Assembly: GCF_002407245.1 (NCBI RefSeq)
Contig: NZ_CP010681.1
Span: 868,001-932,000 of the forward strand
DNA length: 64,000 bases
Direction: 5' to 3'
Source of the DNA: Phaeobacter piscinae
Lineage (GTDB): Bacteria; Pseudomonadota; Alphaproteobacteria; Rhodobacterales; Rhodobacteraceae
The number at the start of each line of letters is the position of its first letter. Position 1 is the first letter of the stretch. Made by a program: the position numbers and the translations under genes. Shown here in pieces: positions 28,100 through 61,381 of this stretch. The notes under the pieces were generated by a model that saw only the letters and a program-made list of their open reading frames with translations, searched no databases and was not told the DNA's origin.

Positions 28100-28216
28100 C
28101 TAGACTTGGAAAAGACACCAGATGAGGTTTGGCTCGGGAAACAGAGGGCGTAGGACCCCCTTGTTCAGTCATCGCAAGACGTCCGGGAGTGTACAAGTCC
28201 CGTAGCCATGCGCGCC

Positions 28217-28330
28217 TAGCTTCCTACGCCAGTATCAACTGGGTCAGGTTCAAAGGGTCGCGCCGCCGGTTCGGGAATGCCCCGCACCTAAACGCCTCTC
28301 AGTCCCCTTGGCGGGACTCCCCTGCGTGCT
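28217..28330 (-). promoter_or_regulatory. TPP riboswitch (THI element) upstream of thiC
   Basis: On the minus strand the conserved blocks occur in order: GGGGAGTC, CTGAGAGG, ACCCTTTGAACCTGACC and ATACTGGCGTAGGAAGC. These are the pyrimidine-sensor and pyrophosphate-sensor helices of the TPP riboswitch. It lies about 135 nt before the thiC start and would repress the whole operon when TPP is abundant. Confidence 0.97.
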
Positions 28331-28372
28331 TTAGGGGTAGGGGAGACAGGGTCTCTCCGTCAATATGTTATT

Positions 28373-46804: not shown

Positions 46805-46879
46805 TGGAGCGGGCGAGGCGATTCGAACGCCCGACCCTAACCTTGGCAAGGTTATGCTCTACCCCTGAGCTACGCCCGC
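46805..46879 (-). tRNA. tRNA-Gly (GCC), copy 1
   Basis: A 75-nt cloverleaf with encoded CCA: acceptor GCGGGCG/CGCCCGC, anticodon loop CTTGCCAAG (GCC), and T arm GGGCGTTCGAATCGCCT-like with TTCGAAT. Identical to copies 2 and 3; the flank differs by one base (CCATTTGG). Confidence 0.97.
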
Positions 46880-47086: not shown

Positions 47087-47185
47087 TGTCCAAATGGAGC
47101 GGGCGAGGCGATTCGAACGCCCGACCCTAACCTTGGCAAGGTTATGCTCTACCCCTGAGCTACGCCCGCGCTGCCATTCGGTGAG
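47086..47185. repeat. 100-bp direct repeat, left copy (contains tRNA-Gly copy 2)
   Basis: Runs from CTGTCCAAATGG to CCATTCGGTGAG and is identical, base for base, to 49383-49482. Together the two copies bracket the restriction-modification genes. Confidence 0.95.
47095..47169 (-). tRNA. tRNA-Gly (GCC), copy 2
   Basis: Same 75-nt tRNA sequence as copies 1 and 3, with anticodon GCC and encoded CCA. It has its own downstream terminator. Confidence 0.97.
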
Positions 47186-49382: not shown

Positions 49383-49482
49383 CTGTCCAAATGGAGCGGG
49401 CGAGGCGATTCGAACGCCCGACCCTAACCTTGGCAAGGTTATGCTCTACCCCTGAGCTACGCCCGCGCTGCCATTCGGTGAG
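49383..49482. repeat. 100-bp direct repeat, right copy (contains tRNA-Gly copy 3)
   Basis: Identical to 47086-47185; the offset between copies is 2297 bp. Sequence diverges immediately outside at both ends. Confidence 0.95.
49392..49466 (-). tRNA. tRNA-Gly (GCC), copy 3
   Basis: Same 75-nt sequence as copies 1 and 2, anticodon GCC, encoded CCA. Confidence 0.97.
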
Positions 49483-56817: not shown

Positions 56818-56995
56818 AATGCGCTGGTCTGCCTTGCCGGATGTTGAGTGTCAAAAAAACAACCTGTAGATGAAAACACGGTGCCTGAATGGGTTTTAGA
56901 AAACGTTAATGCCTCACCGCGCGGTCTTTCTTGGCACGGCGCTGACATCCCGCAGGCGGCACAAGCGCCACATCTCGTACCGTGAATTTGGGGTG

Positions 56996-57010
56996 GAACA
57001 GACTGTGAAC
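56996..57010 (+). promoter_or_regulatory. LexA (SOS) box upstream of pcrA/uvrD
   Basis: GAAC-N7-GAAC (spacer AGACTGT), the reverse complement of the alphaproteobacterial consensus GTTC-N7-GTTC, ending 42 bp before the pcrA start. Confidence 0.8.
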
Positions 57011-57052
57011 GCCCTCTTTCCGCCGGGATTGAATCGCGCTAATGTCCCGCTC

Positions 57053-59416
57053 ATGAGCAGTTTTGACGATATCGACCCCTATGAGGGGATCTCGCTGTCC
57101 GCGCGCGCCATGGCAGCGCGGCCGATGCCGTATCTCGACGGGCTGAACCCGGCACAGCGGGCCGCCGTTGAATGCCTGGAGGGACCTGTGCTGATGCTGG
57201 CCGGGGCCGGCACCGGCAAGACGAAGGCGCTGACTGCGCGCATCGTGCATCTTCTGACCACGGGCATCGCCAAACCAAATGAGATCCTTGCTGTGACCTT
57301 TACCAACAAGGCCGCGCGCGAGATGAAGGAGCGGGTTGCAGGCATGTTGGGGCAGGCGGTTGAGGGGATGCCCTGGCTTGGCACCTTCCATTCGATCTGC
57401 GTGAAGCTGCTGCGCCGCCATGCCGAATTGGTCGGGCTCAAATCCAATTTCACCATTCTGGATACCGATGATCAGATCCGCCTGCTGAAACAGCTGATCA
57501 AGGCGGAAGGCATTGATGACAAACGCTGGCCCGCGCGCATGCTGGCAGGTGTCATAGACGATTGGAAAAACCGCGCGCTGACGCCGTCGAAAGTGCCGGT
57601 GTCCGATGCCAGTGCCTACAACCATCGCGGCGTGGATTTCTACGCCCAGTATCAGGCGCGGCTGAAGGATCTGAACGCGGTCGATTTTGGTGATCTACTG
57701 CTGCATATGGTCACCATATTTCAGGATAACCCGGATGTGCTGGAGCAATATCAGCGTTGGTTCCGCTTCATCATGGTGGACGAATATCAGGATACCAACG
57801 TGGCGCAGTACCTCTGGCTGCGGCTGCTGGCGGGCGCCCATAAGAACATCTGCTGCGTCGGTGACGATGATCAGTCGATCTATGGCTGGCGCGGCGCAGA
57901 GGTGGGCAATATCCTGCGGTTTGAAAAGGATTTTCCCGGCGCCAATGTGGTGCGGCTGGAACAAAACTACCGCTCGACTGAACATATTCTCAGCGCCGCC
58001 TCTGGTGTGATCCGTGGCAATTCCGGCCGTCTGGGCAAGGAGCTGTGGACCGAGGCGCGCGGCGGCGAGAAGGTCCGCCTGATCGGTCATTGGGACGGCG
58101 AGGAGGAGGCCCGCTGGATCGGCGAGGAGATTGAGGCGATGCAGCGCGGCACCCGTGGCCTGGCGCCGGTCGATCTCAACAATATGGCCATCCTCGTCCG
58201 GGCCTCGCATCAGATGCGCGCCTTTGAGGATCGGTTTCTGACCATCGGCTTGCCGTACCGGGTCATTGGCGGGCCACGCTTTTATGAGCGGCTCGAAATT
58301 CGCGATGCCATGGCCTATTTCCGGCTGGTGGTCAGTGCTGACGATGATCTTGCCTTTGAGCGGATCGTCAACACGCCGAAGCGCGGCCTTGGCGATAAGG
58401 CGCAGCAGACCATTCAGACCATGGCGCGCAGCAATGGCGTCTCCCTGGTGGAGGGCGCGCGGCTTGCGGTTGAATCCGGCCAGATCAAGGGGAAGGGTGG
58501 CAATGCCCTGCGCCAGCTGGTCACCGACCTTGCCCGCTGGGGGCGTCTGGCGGGGGATGCGGATATGACCCATATGGAGCTGGCCGAAACCATTCTGGAT
58601 GAAAGCGGCTACACCACCATGTGGCAGACCGACAAAAACCCGGATTCGCCGGGGCGTCTGGAAAACCTCAAGGAACTGGTGAAGGCGCTGGAGGCGTTTG
58701 AAAACCTGCAAGGCTTCCTCGAACATGTCAGTCTGATCATGGACAATGACAAACAGGACGCCGCCCAAAAGGTGTCGATCATGACACTGCACGCCGCCAA
58801 AGGGTTGGAATTTCCGGCTGTGTTCTTGCCTGGCTGGGAGGATGGGCTGTTCCCTTCGCAGCGCTCCATGGATGAAAGCGGCCTGAAGGGCCTCGAGGAG
58901 GAGCGCCGTTTGGCCTATGTCGGCATCACCCGGGCCGAGGAAATCTGCACCATCTCCTTTGCCGGCAATCGCCGCGTCTTTGGGCAATGGCAGTCACAGC
59001 TGCCCTCCCGCTTCATTGATGAGCTGCCGGAAGAACATGTGGAGGTGCTGACCCCGCCCGGTCTTTATGGTGGCGGCTACGGGGCTGCGGCCCCCGGCGG
59101 TGGTGGTGGGGCGGTGCGCTCCACGATTGAGGATCGCATGGCAGCCGCCGACGGGTACAACTCGCCCGGCTGGAAGCGCATGCAATCCCGCGCCGGTGAG
59201 CGTGGTCTGTCACAGCCCAAGGAAAGCAAATCCAGCGTCATCGACCTCACCGCGACATCCGCCTTCATGGTCGGGGAGCGGGTGTTTCACCAGAAATTTG
59301 GCTATGGCGCGATCACCGGGATCGAAGGCGACAAACTGGAGGTGGATTTCGAGAAGGCTGGCACCAAGAAAGTCGTCGCCCGCTTTGTCTCCGCAGCGGA
59401 GGACGTGCCCTTTTAA
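57053..59416 (+). CDS. uvrD: UvrD/PcrA-type DNA helicase
   Basis: SF1A 3'-5' helicase for repair and replication-fork clearance. The 787-residue product has motif I GAGTGKT (51-57), AVTFTNKAAREMKERV, DEYQDTN (about 243), DDDQSIYGWRGAE, LEQNYRS, VSIMTLHAAKGLEFPAVF and AYVGITRAEE, and a C-terminal PcrA-type tudor-like domain (GERVFHQKFGYGAITGIEGDKLEVDF). The start is the ATG at 57053, since the longer frame (from 56909) would include the LexA box as coding sequence. SOS control is inferred from that box. Confidence 0.94.
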   Translation: MSSFDDIDPYEGISLSARAMAARPMPYLDGLNPAQRAAVECLEGPVLMLAGAGTGKTKALTARIVHLLTTGIAKPNEILAVTFTNKAAREMKERVAGMLGQAVEGMPWLGTFHSICVKLLRRHAELVGLKSNFTILDTDDQIRLLKQLIKAEGIDDKRWPARMLAGVIDDWKNRALTPSKVPVSDASAYNHRGVDFYAQYQARLKDLNAVDFGDLLLHMVTIFQDNPDVLEQYQRWFRFIMVDEYQDTNVAQYLWLRLLAGAHKNICCVGDDDQSIYGWRGAEVGNILRFEKDFPGANVVRLEQNYRSTEHILSAASGVIRGNSGRLGKELWTEARGGEKVRLIGHWDGEEEARWIGEEIEAMQRGTRGLAPVDLNNMAILVRASHQMRAFEDRFLTIGLPYRVIGGPRFYERLEIRDAMAYFRLVVSADDDLAFERIVNTPKRGLGDKAQQTIQTMARSNGVSLVEGARLAVESGQIKGKGGNALRQLVTDLARWGRLAGDADMTHMELAETILDESGYTTMWQTDKNPDSPGRLENLKELVKALEAFENLQGFLEHVSLIMDNDKQDAAQKVSIMTLHAAKGLEFPAVFLPGWEDGLFPSQRSMDESGLKGLEEERRLAYVGITRAEEICTISFAGNRRVFGQWQSQLPSRFIDELPEEHVEVLTPPGLYGGGYGAAAPGGGGGAVRSTIEDRMAAADGYNSPGWKRMQSRAGERGLSQPKESKSSVIDLTATSAFMVGERVFHQKFGYGAITGIEGDKLEVDFEKAGTKKVVARFVSAAEDVPF

Positions 59417-59580: not shown

Positions 59581-59768
59581 AAAAAAACGGCGGTGCCAGG
59601 GAGGAGGAGGGCACCGCCGTTCTGTGCAACACCATACCATCAGGGAGGAGGAGGCATGGTGTATCAGGATCCGGCTATGACGCCGGTATAGGGTGCGGTG
59701 ACATCAGGGAGGAGGAGGATGTCACCGCGATTACAGGCCCTCAAGGGAGGAGGAGAAGAGAGCCTGAA
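59581..59768 (-). ncRNA. Four CcsR/'cuckoo'-type RNA hairpins with CCUCCUCCC loops
   Basis: On the minus strand, directly after a DUF1127 gene, four hairpins in a row each expose a CUCCUCCUCCCU-type loop. Plus-strand coordinates: 59734-59766 (CAGGC stem, weaker), 59695-59728 (11-bp perfect stem), 59629-59662 (10-bp stem with one G-U), and 59587-59620 (11-bp perfect stem). The last is followed by seven T (59581-59587 as A) and is also an intrinsic terminator. This is the arrangement of the CcsR1-4 RNAs of Rhodobacter sphaeroides, which are co-transcribed with a DUF1127 gene and induced by stress. The C-rich loops are complementary to Shine-Dalgarno sequences. Confidence 0.85.
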
Positions 59769-59772
59769 CTCT

Positions 59773-59991
59773 TTATTTCGTGCCGTAGGCGGCCTCATAG
59801 GCAACGCTGCGCAGCATGGAGCGGCTCAGCCCCAGATCTGCCAGTTCGCGACCAGAGAGCGTCGACAGCTCATTCATGGTCTGGCGAAACAGGCGGTAGC
59901 GTGCAATCTTGCCTTTCAGTTCGTCAAACACGGCGCGCGGGCTGAAGGCCAGAGCGCCTTTACGGGTTGTCATATTATCAACAGCGGCCAT
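59773..59991 (-). CDS. DUF1127 small protein (CcaF1-like)
   Basis: A 72-residue basic protein with the DUF1127 signature in its second half (YRLFRQTMNELSTLSGRELADLGLSRSMLRSVAYEAAYG). In R. sphaeroides the equivalent 71-residue protein lies just upstream of the CcsR RNAs and binds RNA. AAGGACA precedes the ATG at 59991; the longer frame to 60078 has no site. It is the promoter-proximal part of the hairpin transcript. The region upstream to 60310 is a 319-bp divergent promoter region with a (TG) run at 60011-60022 and no gene. Confidence 0.9.
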   Translation of the reverse strand: MAAVDNMTTRKGALAFSPRAVFDELKGKIARYRLFRQTMNELSTLSGRELADLGLSRSMLRSVAYEAAYGTK

Positions 59992-60310
59992 CGGTGTTGT
60001 CCTTAACGTCTGTGTGTGTGTCTGGCCGTTTCCGGCCTCGCTTGACCCCATAAATATGATAATGCTGCGAGCGCACAATCCCTGAAAGGGGCATTTCTGC
60101 TATGCAGCAAATGCATGGGTTTCCTAAGGGAAACGGGGTTGATCCTGCTGAGTTATGCATCAAGGAGCGGTCAGGCGCTCAAAAACCGGGCGGGGCGTGA
60201 AGCGGCGTGCCATGGCGCCTGCCTTGATCGGCGCGGTCTCTCATTGCAATGCGGCCTTGGGCTTGGTCGCGGCAGGTCTTATATGGCTGGAAACCATGAG
60301 GAGACCGGCC

Positions 60311-61381
60311 ATGACCCCCACCCAGGAAGAGATTCGCGACGCCCTTGCGCGGCTGCAGCTGCCCGATGGCGGCACGCTGGTCTCACGTGACATGCTGCGC
60401 GCGGTGATGGTTGATGGCGGGCGCGTCAGTTTCGTGATCGAGGCCCCCAATCCGCAGATCGCCGCCCAGATGGAGCCGCTGCGCCGCGCTGCCGAGGCCA
60501 CTGTTCTGGCCTTGCCGGGGGTGGACAGCGTGTCCGCTGCACTGACCGCTCATGCGGACGCGGCCGCCAAACCGGCGCCGACCCTGAAACTGGGCGGTCA
60601 TCCCAAACCGCAGCAGGGGCCGCTGAAACCCAGTGGTGTCAAACGCATTCTTGCGGTTGGTTCGGGCAAGGGCGGCGTGGGCAAATCCACCGTCAGCGCC
60701 AATCTCGCCGTGGCTCTGACGCGGCAGGGCCGCAAGGTGGGGTTGCTGGATGCGGATATATATGGACCGAGCCAGCCGCGCATGATGGGCGCCAGTGGCC
60801 GCCCCGCCAGCCCGGATGGCAAAATCATTGAACCGCTGCACGCCCATGGCGTCACCTTGATGTCCATCGGCTTCATGGTGGATGAGGCCAAGGCCGTGGT
60901 CTGGCGCGGCCCGATGCTGATGGGCGCGTTGCAGCAGATGCTGGGGCAGGTGAACTGGGGTGAACTCGACGTGCTGATCGTGGACCTGCCGCCCGGCACC
61001 GGCGATGTGCAGCTGACCCTCTGCACGAAGGCGGAGTTGTCCGGCGCCATCGTGGTTTCCACGCCGCAAGATGTGGCGCTCCTCGATGCGCGCAAAGCGC
61101 TCGACATGTTCAACACCCTAAAGACCCCCGTGCTGGGCCTGATTGAGAATATGTCCTTCTTCGCCTGCCCGGACTGCGGTGGCGAGCATCACATCTTTGG
61201 CCATGGTGGGGTCGCTGCGGAAGCGGAGCGCCTTGGCGTGCCGCTGTTGGGCGCGCTGCCGATTGATCTTGAAACCCGGTTGGCAGGCGATAATGGCACG
61301 CCGATTGCGGCCGGTGACGGCGTGATGGCGCAGGCCTACGCCAAAATGGCCGAAGGGCTGATCCGCGGCGGTATGGCCTGA
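60311..61381 (+). CDS. apbC: Mrp/NBP35/ApbC-type iron-sulphur carrier ATPase
   Basis: P-loop ATPase that carries or inserts Fe-S clusters. The 356-residue product has an N-terminal DUF59/MIP18-like region (EIRDALARLQLPDGGTLVSRDM), the deviant Walker A GSGKGGVGKST (117-127), DADIYGPSQPRMMG, LIVDLPPGTGDVQLT and the cluster-binding CxxC in SFFACPDCGGEHHIFG (Cys about 285 and 288). The ATG at 60311 follows GAGGAG. Confidence 0.95.
   Translation: MTPTQEEIRDALARLQLPDGGTLVSRDMLRAVMVDGGRVSFVIEAPNPQIAAQMEPLRRAAEATVLALPGVDSVSAALTAHADAAAKPAPTLKLGGHPKPQQGPLKPSGVKRILAVGSGKGGVGKSTVSANLAVALTRQGRKVGLLDADIYGPSQPRMMGASGRPASPDGKIIEPLHAHGVTLMSIGFMVDEAKAVVWRGPMLMGALQQMLGQVNWGELDVLIVDLPPGTGDVQLTLCTKAELSGAIVVSTPQDVALLDARKALDMFNTLKTPVLGLIENMSFFACPDCGGEHHIFGHGGVAAEAERLGVPLLGALPIDLETRLAGDNGTPIAAGDGVMAQAYAKMAEGLIRGGMA

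Follow-up and report, generated by a model that had tools for sequence, protein, structure and literature searches.

A probable DUF1127-CcsR (cuckoo RNA) operon with two CcsR-like double-hairpin units in Phaeobacter piscinae and its predicted control by an LsrB-type regulator

What is a DUF1127 gene followed by a row of hairpins with one common C-rich loop, and what controls it? The question is raised by a locus on the minus strand of the window (the whole 64,000-nt stretch of Phaeobacter piscinae DNA analysed here), which a preliminary description had filed as a DUF1127-CcsR or cuckoo RNA locus. The elements of the locus, within window positions 59581-60116, are as follows.

60102-60116, minus strand: operator box 1, ATGCATTTGCTGCAT (ATGC-N7-GCAT, T-N11-A type), containing TGCA-N6-GCAT
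60065-60078, minus strand: operator box 2 or possible -35 region, TTGTGC-N4-GCAG, from the upstream alignment
60050-60058, minus strand: -10-like CATATTTAT, from sequence likeness and the upstream alignment
59773-59991, minus strand: DUF1127 (CcaF1-like) gene, 72 aa, from its translation and PF06568 (E 1.1e-12)
59690-59770, minus strand: CcsR1-like unit 1, two hairpins; RF02791, 45.7 bits, E 6.4e-10, below the gathering score of 65.3
59734-59766, minus strand: hairpin 1 (H1), first of unit 1; loop word 59744-59755; 9 pairs, one of them G-U
59695-59728, minus strand: hairpin 2 (H2), second of unit 1; loop word 59706-59717; 11 bp, perfect
59687-59694, minus strand: inter-unit linker ACCCTATA; 7 of 8 positions the same in all seven sequences
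59671-59686, minus strand: small linker hairpin CCGGC/GCCGG with no C-rich loop; 2 of 5 pairs changed on both sides
59582-59672, minus strand: CcsR1-like unit 2, two hairpins; RF02791, 45.2 bits, E 9.3e-10, below the gathering score of 65.3
59629-59662, minus strand: hairpin 3 (H3), first of unit 2; loop word 59642-59653; 10 pairs, one of them G-U
59586-59621, minus strand: hairpin 4 (H4), second of unit 2; loop word 59598-59609; 12 bp, perfect
59581-59587, minus strand: T7 run 3' of H4, in the form of a Rho-independent terminator by sequence

The arrangement originally described, a DUF1127 gene and then four same-strand hairpins with the same loop, was borne out by word search, fold prediction and the PF06568 match. 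The loop common to all four hairpins is CUCCUCCUCCCU, and the four loops are spaced by 38, 64 and 44 nt. The word CTCCTCCTCCCT has exactly four copies in the window, one in each of these minus-strand hairpins, and did not appear in 100 shuffles. The 9-mer CCTCCTCCC has four copies in the window at the same four sites (shuffle mean 0.68; 1 of 100 shuffles reached four). Genome-wide it has 34 copies versus 43 for the pattern read backwards, so rarity lies not in the 9-mer itself but in its clustering in hairpins. The 216-nt stretch has a predicted fold of -94.7 kcal/mol, compared with -57.3 ± 4.2 kcal/mol for 200 shuffles (z -8.9). The suggestion that the last hairpin doubles as a terminator is supported by sequence, namely the 12-bp stem of H4 and the T7 run. 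The operon is flanked by a uvrD-type helicase gene at 56909-59416 and an mrp/NUBPL-type open frame at 60155-61381, both on the plus strand. Elsewhere, the window holds a TPP riboswitch (28204-28333, minus strand; 59.7 bits) and three equal-scoring tRNA genes that are likely copies (46808-46879, 47098-47169 and 49395-49466, minus strand).

The locus is of the published DUF1127-CcsR "CIN1" (cuckoo RNA) type, known from Rhodobacter and relatives. Specifically, it combines adjacent hairpins with the CCUCCUCCC loop, variable stems with compensatory changes, and a DUF1127 gene upstream on the same strand, and the original filing is upheld on these grounds. Reinkensmeier and Giegerich (2015) reportedly described the cuckoo RNA family with two to four hairpins. 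Both PMC10253847 and PMC10746234 refer to this family. The ccaF1-CcsR transcript of R. sphaeroides is reported to start at an RpoHI/RpoHII promoter, to be cut by RNase E and to end at a Rho-independent terminator (PMC10253847, PMC7866481); CcaF1 is reported to bind RNA and to influence CcsR maturation (PMC10253847, PMC8307010), and flhR mRNA is named as a target of CcsR1-4 (PMC8307010). In S. meliloti, NfeR1 is presented as an sRNA that acts in trans, has three hairpins and is transcribed from its own promoter; its identical CCUCCUCCC loops act in reporter assays as redundant anti-Shine-Dalgarno seeds, and it silences ntrB (PMC10746234).

The array of four hairpins is best understood as two units, each composed of two kinds of hairpin, a reading suggested by the two-hairpin Rfam model, the alternating gaps between loops and the likeness of 5' arms within each kind. 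The Rfam CcsR1 model (RF02791) comprises 83 positions with two hairpins and matches the locus twice. The proposed Rfam check thus gave two CcsR1 matches (E 6.4e-10 and 9.3e-10), but both units, at 45.7 and 45.2 bits, miss the curated gathering score of 65.3 bits, and they are therefore named CcsR-like. No comparable second CcsR1 locus was found in the genome (next E 0.77, with 150 of 2548 candidates scored). The ar14 model (RF02344) matches the locus with 48.3 bits (E 1e-7) and misses its cut-off of 58.8 bits; among 135 class genomes it has matches in seven, none over the cut-off, and RF02343 (ar9) has no match in 142 genomes and none in the controls.

The loops of related arrays are spaced in the same alternating way. 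Over 53 loci, this one and 52 relatives, arrays hold 0 to 16 loops, the median gaps between loops are 41 and 63 (some of the loci being close relatives), and in 27 of the 34 even-numbered arrays with at least four loops short and long gaps strictly alternate. Between loci, second hairpins resemble one another in their 5' arms at a mean of 9.5 of 18 letters, versus 7.9 for first with first, 7.3 for first with second and 6.9 for shuffled arms (counted over 168 hairpins in 27 arrays, some from near relatives). Thus the stems, initially called unrelated, do differ in sequence, but are not wholly unrelated, with second-hairpin 5' arms alike across loci. The accompanying guess of two double-hairpin RNAs gains support from the Rfam model and the loop spacing. 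In contrast, the implied equation of the four hairpins with CcsR1-4 did not hold: they probably equal two CcsR-like units. A one-to-one assignment was rejected, because the CcsR1 unit has two hairpins and the loci above the cut-off carry 6 to 14 loops. Of 295 family genomes, 243 have a CcsR1 match at E <= 0.001, which exceeds the cut-off in 10; of 14 control genomes one has such a match, and that match falls short of the cut-off. In the ten family genomes above the cut-off, the best loci have 6 to 14 loops, with 8 of 10 alternating, and three have exactly eight, the number that four double-hairpin RNAs CcsR1-4 would need.

Comparison within the genus suggests what has been kept. The set consists of seven distinct sequences, our own and those of six genomes of the genus; Phaeobacter italicus, the would-be eighth, was dropped because its sequence matches that of one of the six at 216/216 bases. 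All 28 hairpins, four in each of the seven sequences, keep the core CTCCTCCC. Standard pairs fill 98.8% of stem cells and 11 of 47 stem pairs are changed on both sides, values reached by 0 of 500 shuffles in either case; the number of further pair types shows a weaker excess, reached by 21 of 500 shuffles. These shuffle tests do not correct for the relatedness of the sequences. When the partner is slid by 1-3 columns, pairing falls to 29.5-51.1%. Compensatory stem changes had been set beforehand as the test on which the reading could fail; with double-sided changes in 11 of 47 pairs within the genus, it survived. Because the stems stay paired through compensatory changes and all 28 loop cores are kept, both the structure of the stems and the sequence of the loops look selected.

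The stem of H2 stands apart, with 0 of 11 pairs varying among the seven sequences while the other stems vary. Such invariance would be unlikely (0.003) if all helices varied alike, a value not to be taken literally since it ignores the relatedness of the loci. In 15 hand-picked loci from several genera, H2 has 12 different 5' arms, and its pairs number 11 to 13 in 14 of the 15 loci and 6 in one (L030). The invariant H2 stem within the genus is not predicted if only loop sequence matters.

Of the 53 loci, all of which were found through the DUF1127 gene, 52 have at least one loop word behind it. The surroundings are largely kept: in flanks of up to 2.5 kb, mrp is present in 48 of the 52 relatives, uvrD in 39 and both in 38, where a missing neighbour may reflect a cut contig or a longer array. 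The sole locus with no C-rich loop behind the gene (L050) also lacks both operator boxes. Several arrays are enlarged. Four loci of Tropicimonas and Aliiruegeria (L024, L033, L034 and L042) have four same-strand DUF1127-profile frames interleaved with cuckoo loops, the first array holding 8 to 12 of them, and represent a multiplied CIN locus. Two Limimaricola loci (L057:2670-3345 and L065:2670-3380) carry 16 and 15 C-rich loops, respectively, in near-identical repeated blocks behind a single DUF1127 gene.

Taken with the published relatives, the locus is very likely a CIN1-type operon, namely one transcript that carries DUF1127 and two double-hairpin anti-Shine-Dalgarno RNAs released by cleavage. 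For this operon the anatomy, predicted fold, compensatory changes, loop conservation, gene order and operator conservation are established. By analogy to the published relatives, we expect its transcription, processing, anti-Shine-Dalgarno action, protein role and stress induction to resemble theirs. A promoter at about 60050-60116 would give one transcript with the CcaF1-like DUF1127 gene and the two cuckoo RNAs, ending at the terminator hairpin H4. An endonuclease (RNase E in R. sphaeroides) would cut probably in the linkers, for which ACCCTATA at 59687-59694 is a candidate cleavage zone, and would free two RNAs from the 3' UTR. Each RNA would expose two CUCCUCCUCCCU loops, pair with Shine-Dalgarno sites of GGAGG type and block translation, while the DUF1127 protein may modulate maturation and turnover of the RNAs.

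Other explanations of the same anatomy have to be weighed. The hairpins lie directly behind the DUF1127 gene and H4 is shaped like a terminator, as would be expected if they merely stabilised or terminated the DUF1127 mRNA as a structured 3' UTR with no action in trans. Such a function needs the stem and not the loop; yet it is the stems that covary and the core CTCCTCCC that is kept in 28/28, and relatives have arrays of up to 16 loops. A terminator-only 3' UTR was rejected on the kept loop cores and covarying stems, and the broader explanation is quite improbable. The conserved loops could instead be mainly binding sites of the DUF1127 protein, as a sponge or for autoregulation, and not anti-Shine-Dalgarno seeds. 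This fits the reported RNA binding of CcaF1 and its effect on CcsR maturation in R. sphaeroides (PMC10253847, PMC8307010), and also the loops behind DUF1127 in 52/53 loci, though the loci were found via that gene. However, the same loops are described as anti-Shine-Dalgarno seeds in NfeR1, which acts in trans and has its own promoter (PMC10746234), and they are missing behind most other DUF1127 genes of this genome. The genome has five such genes, and within 450 nt downstream of the other four CTCCTCC is absent at three and present as a single copy at one. We consider the protein-site explanation quite unlikely.

The copy number of the loops, 0 to 16, and the near-identical repeated units in some species resemble a mobile REP-like repeat array with no regulatory role. 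Against this, the genome has one CcsR place with conserved loops, and the same neighbours recur in most relatives (mrp 48/52, uvrD 39/52). A mobile array, rejected on the single CcsR locus and the conserved neighbours, has close to negligible probability. The operon of a DUF1127 gene and two double-hairpin RNAs is the reading we retain. A lone CTCCTCC about 74 nt past the stop of another DUF1127 gene (L162) is possibly a lone cuckoo hairpin.

The hairpins themselves add a further, smaller member to a known family and support the double hairpin as its unit; the main interest of the locus is its predicted LsrB-type control. Published work ties the R. sphaeroides operon to RpoHI/RpoHII and, in Rhizobiales, LsrB/VtlR to sRNAs and DUF1127, as far as the sources cited here go. 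Aligning the upstream DNA uncovered a conserved block of two boxes followed by the -10-like CATATTTAT, and this block offers a concrete handle on who controls these RNAs. The counts cover the 320 nt preceding the matched DUF1127 stretch in 53 loci, and 1315 control stretches from the same loci. An exact ATGC-N7-GCAT is present in 35/53 promoters versus 24/1315 controls, TTGTGC-N4-GCAG in 44/53 versus 4/1315, and the distance from box 1 to box 2 is 37 or 38 nt in all 33 loci that have both. As far as the literature was searched, the two-part operator is new.

Among the 53 promoter stretches, 18 lack an exact ATGC-N7-GCAT, 9 lack box 2 and 7 lack both, which counts against a common regulon. The loci with neither box are L024, L033, L034, L042, L044, L047 and L050; six of the seven belong to Tropicimonas or Aliiruegeria, and four of those six have four tandem DUF1127 frames, with the match falling on a frame other than the first.

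The boxes resemble published motifs of LysR-type regulators. The LsrB motif given for S. meliloti, TGCA-N6-GCAT (PMC10746234), occurs on either strand in 46/53 stretches versus 31/1315 controls, falling in box 1 in 35 (own included), only in box 2 in 7 and elsewhere in 4. The Brucella VtlR motif, quoted in PMC12595884 as CAATGCAGCCATGCA, was searched with two positions opened as CAATGCNGCNATGCA and matches 27/53 promoters versus 15/1315 controls; our own promoter has no CAATGCNGCNATGCA match, again a point against the regulon. Over 289 class genomes, CAATGCNGCNATGCA has a match in 75, and two exact CAATGCAGCCATGCA sites have, by eye, no LysR-like frame nearby. The A. tumefaciens VtlR consensus GCAT-N3-TG-N3-T occurs, wherever in the stretch, in 13/53 stretches (own included) versus 32/1315. 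Box 1 also precedes further DUF1127 genes. Within 450 nt before the domain, ATGC-N7-GCAT is exact in two of the four other DUF1127 genes of the genome and has one mismatch in one, a one-mismatch box being expected by chance in about one stretch in ten (90/889). The remaining one of the four has no ATGC-N7-GCAT within 450 nt upstream, contrary to the regulon. At the second DUF1127 genes of the seven genus genomes, the box is exact in 8/8 places, one of them our own.

The genome has 36 LysR-type matches, of which thirty had their loci examined and four were compared with the PDB. One of these proteins (L216) has as its best PDB match 9HH1 (E 4e-72, 246 bits), identified as A. tumefaciens LsrB in PMC11975290, while of the three others two reached 97 and 127 bits and the third had no match listed. 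L216 is, by sequence, a putative LsrB ortholog, and an LsrB-like gene matching it at E <= 1e-40 is present in 117 of the 120 genomes compared from the family. Up to 300 nt after the stop codon of the LsrB-like gene there is an ATGC-N7-GCAT-type box, exact in 22/30 loci and with at most one mismatch in 27/30; in the 250 nt before the gene the figures are 1/30 and 7/30, respectively. In our own genome (L238:3560-3717, G000:C1), a LysR-type box and a SorX-like RNA lie directly downstream of the LsrB-type gene. This RNA scores 50.6 bits versus the Rfam SorX cut-off of 46.6, which is passed in 11 of the 20 LsrB-like loci scanned out of 30, own included. Because R. sphaeroides SorX is reported to derive from the 3' UTR of ompR-1 (PMC8625941), "SorX-like" denotes likeness by Rfam score alone. 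Published precedents are abcR1 and abcR2 directly downstream of vtlR in A. tumefaciens (PMC7486931) and the DUF1127 genes listed among LsrB/VtlR-regulon targets in Brucella (PMC12595884).

Together these results make rather likely a predicted Rhodobacteraceae regulon, in which an LsrB/VtlR-type LysR regulator acts through the two-part operator on the DUF1127-CcsR operon, further DUF1127 genes and the SorX-like RNA. The regulator would bind ATGC-N7-GCAT and then, 37-38 nt on, TTGTGC-N4-GCAG. Its signal would differ from that of LsrB: the redox cysteines C144 and C273 of LsrB, positioned from the 9HH1 alignment, are absent in 30/30 orthologs, which counts against the regulon and predicts a different response to oxidants, although 28/30 retain another cysteine. 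Also against it, the pair trxB-vtlR is termed well conserved in the class (PMC7486931); here trxB as a guide to lsrB led nowhere, with no LysR-like frame beside the genome's trxB and the nearest LysR matches about 20 kb away.

If the regulon is true, a circuit of LsrB, DUF1127 and anti-Shine-Dalgarno RNA predates the split of Rhizobiales and Rhodobacterales, and the published description of LsrB as unique to Rhizobiales (PMC11975290) is contradicted; PMC7486931 places LsrB in many Alphaproteobacteria. Among the matches listed, no open-access paper joins LsrB/VtlR to CcsR or SorX. For LsrB with CcsR1/CcaF1, LsrB appears only in PMC12501420, once, in the reference list, and for VtlR with CcaF1/SorX, VtlR appears in none of the open-access papers listed. 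Because the search was limited to open-access literature, it is weak evidence for the novelty of the regulon.

Among known systems, the locus shares with R. sphaeroides ccaF1-CcsR1-4 the order of DUF1127 and then C-rich-loop hairpins, the two-hairpin unit and the terminator at the end. It differs in having four loops, whereas eight would be expected there from the two-hairpin Rfam model, and in scoring below the cut-off of the R. sphaeroides-type RF02791 CcsR1 model. With the cuckoo family it shares adjacent CCUCCUCCC-loop hairpins and variable stems, although relatives here reach 16 loops. With ar14/NfeR1 (RF02344) it shares identical anti-Shine-Dalgarno loops and the published LsrB motif TGCA-N6-GCAT upstream; NfeR1, in contrast, has three hairpins and its own promoter, and the ar14 match here is 48.3 bits against the required 58.8. 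Compared with the Rhizobiales LsrB/VtlR regulon, there is no trxB neighbour and C144 and C273 are missing, whereas a LysR-type regulator, an sRNA-like element directly downstream and a link to DUF1127 are common to both. Thus, as Agrobacterium vtlR lies beside abcR1, the LsrB-like gene here likewise lies beside an sRNA-like element.
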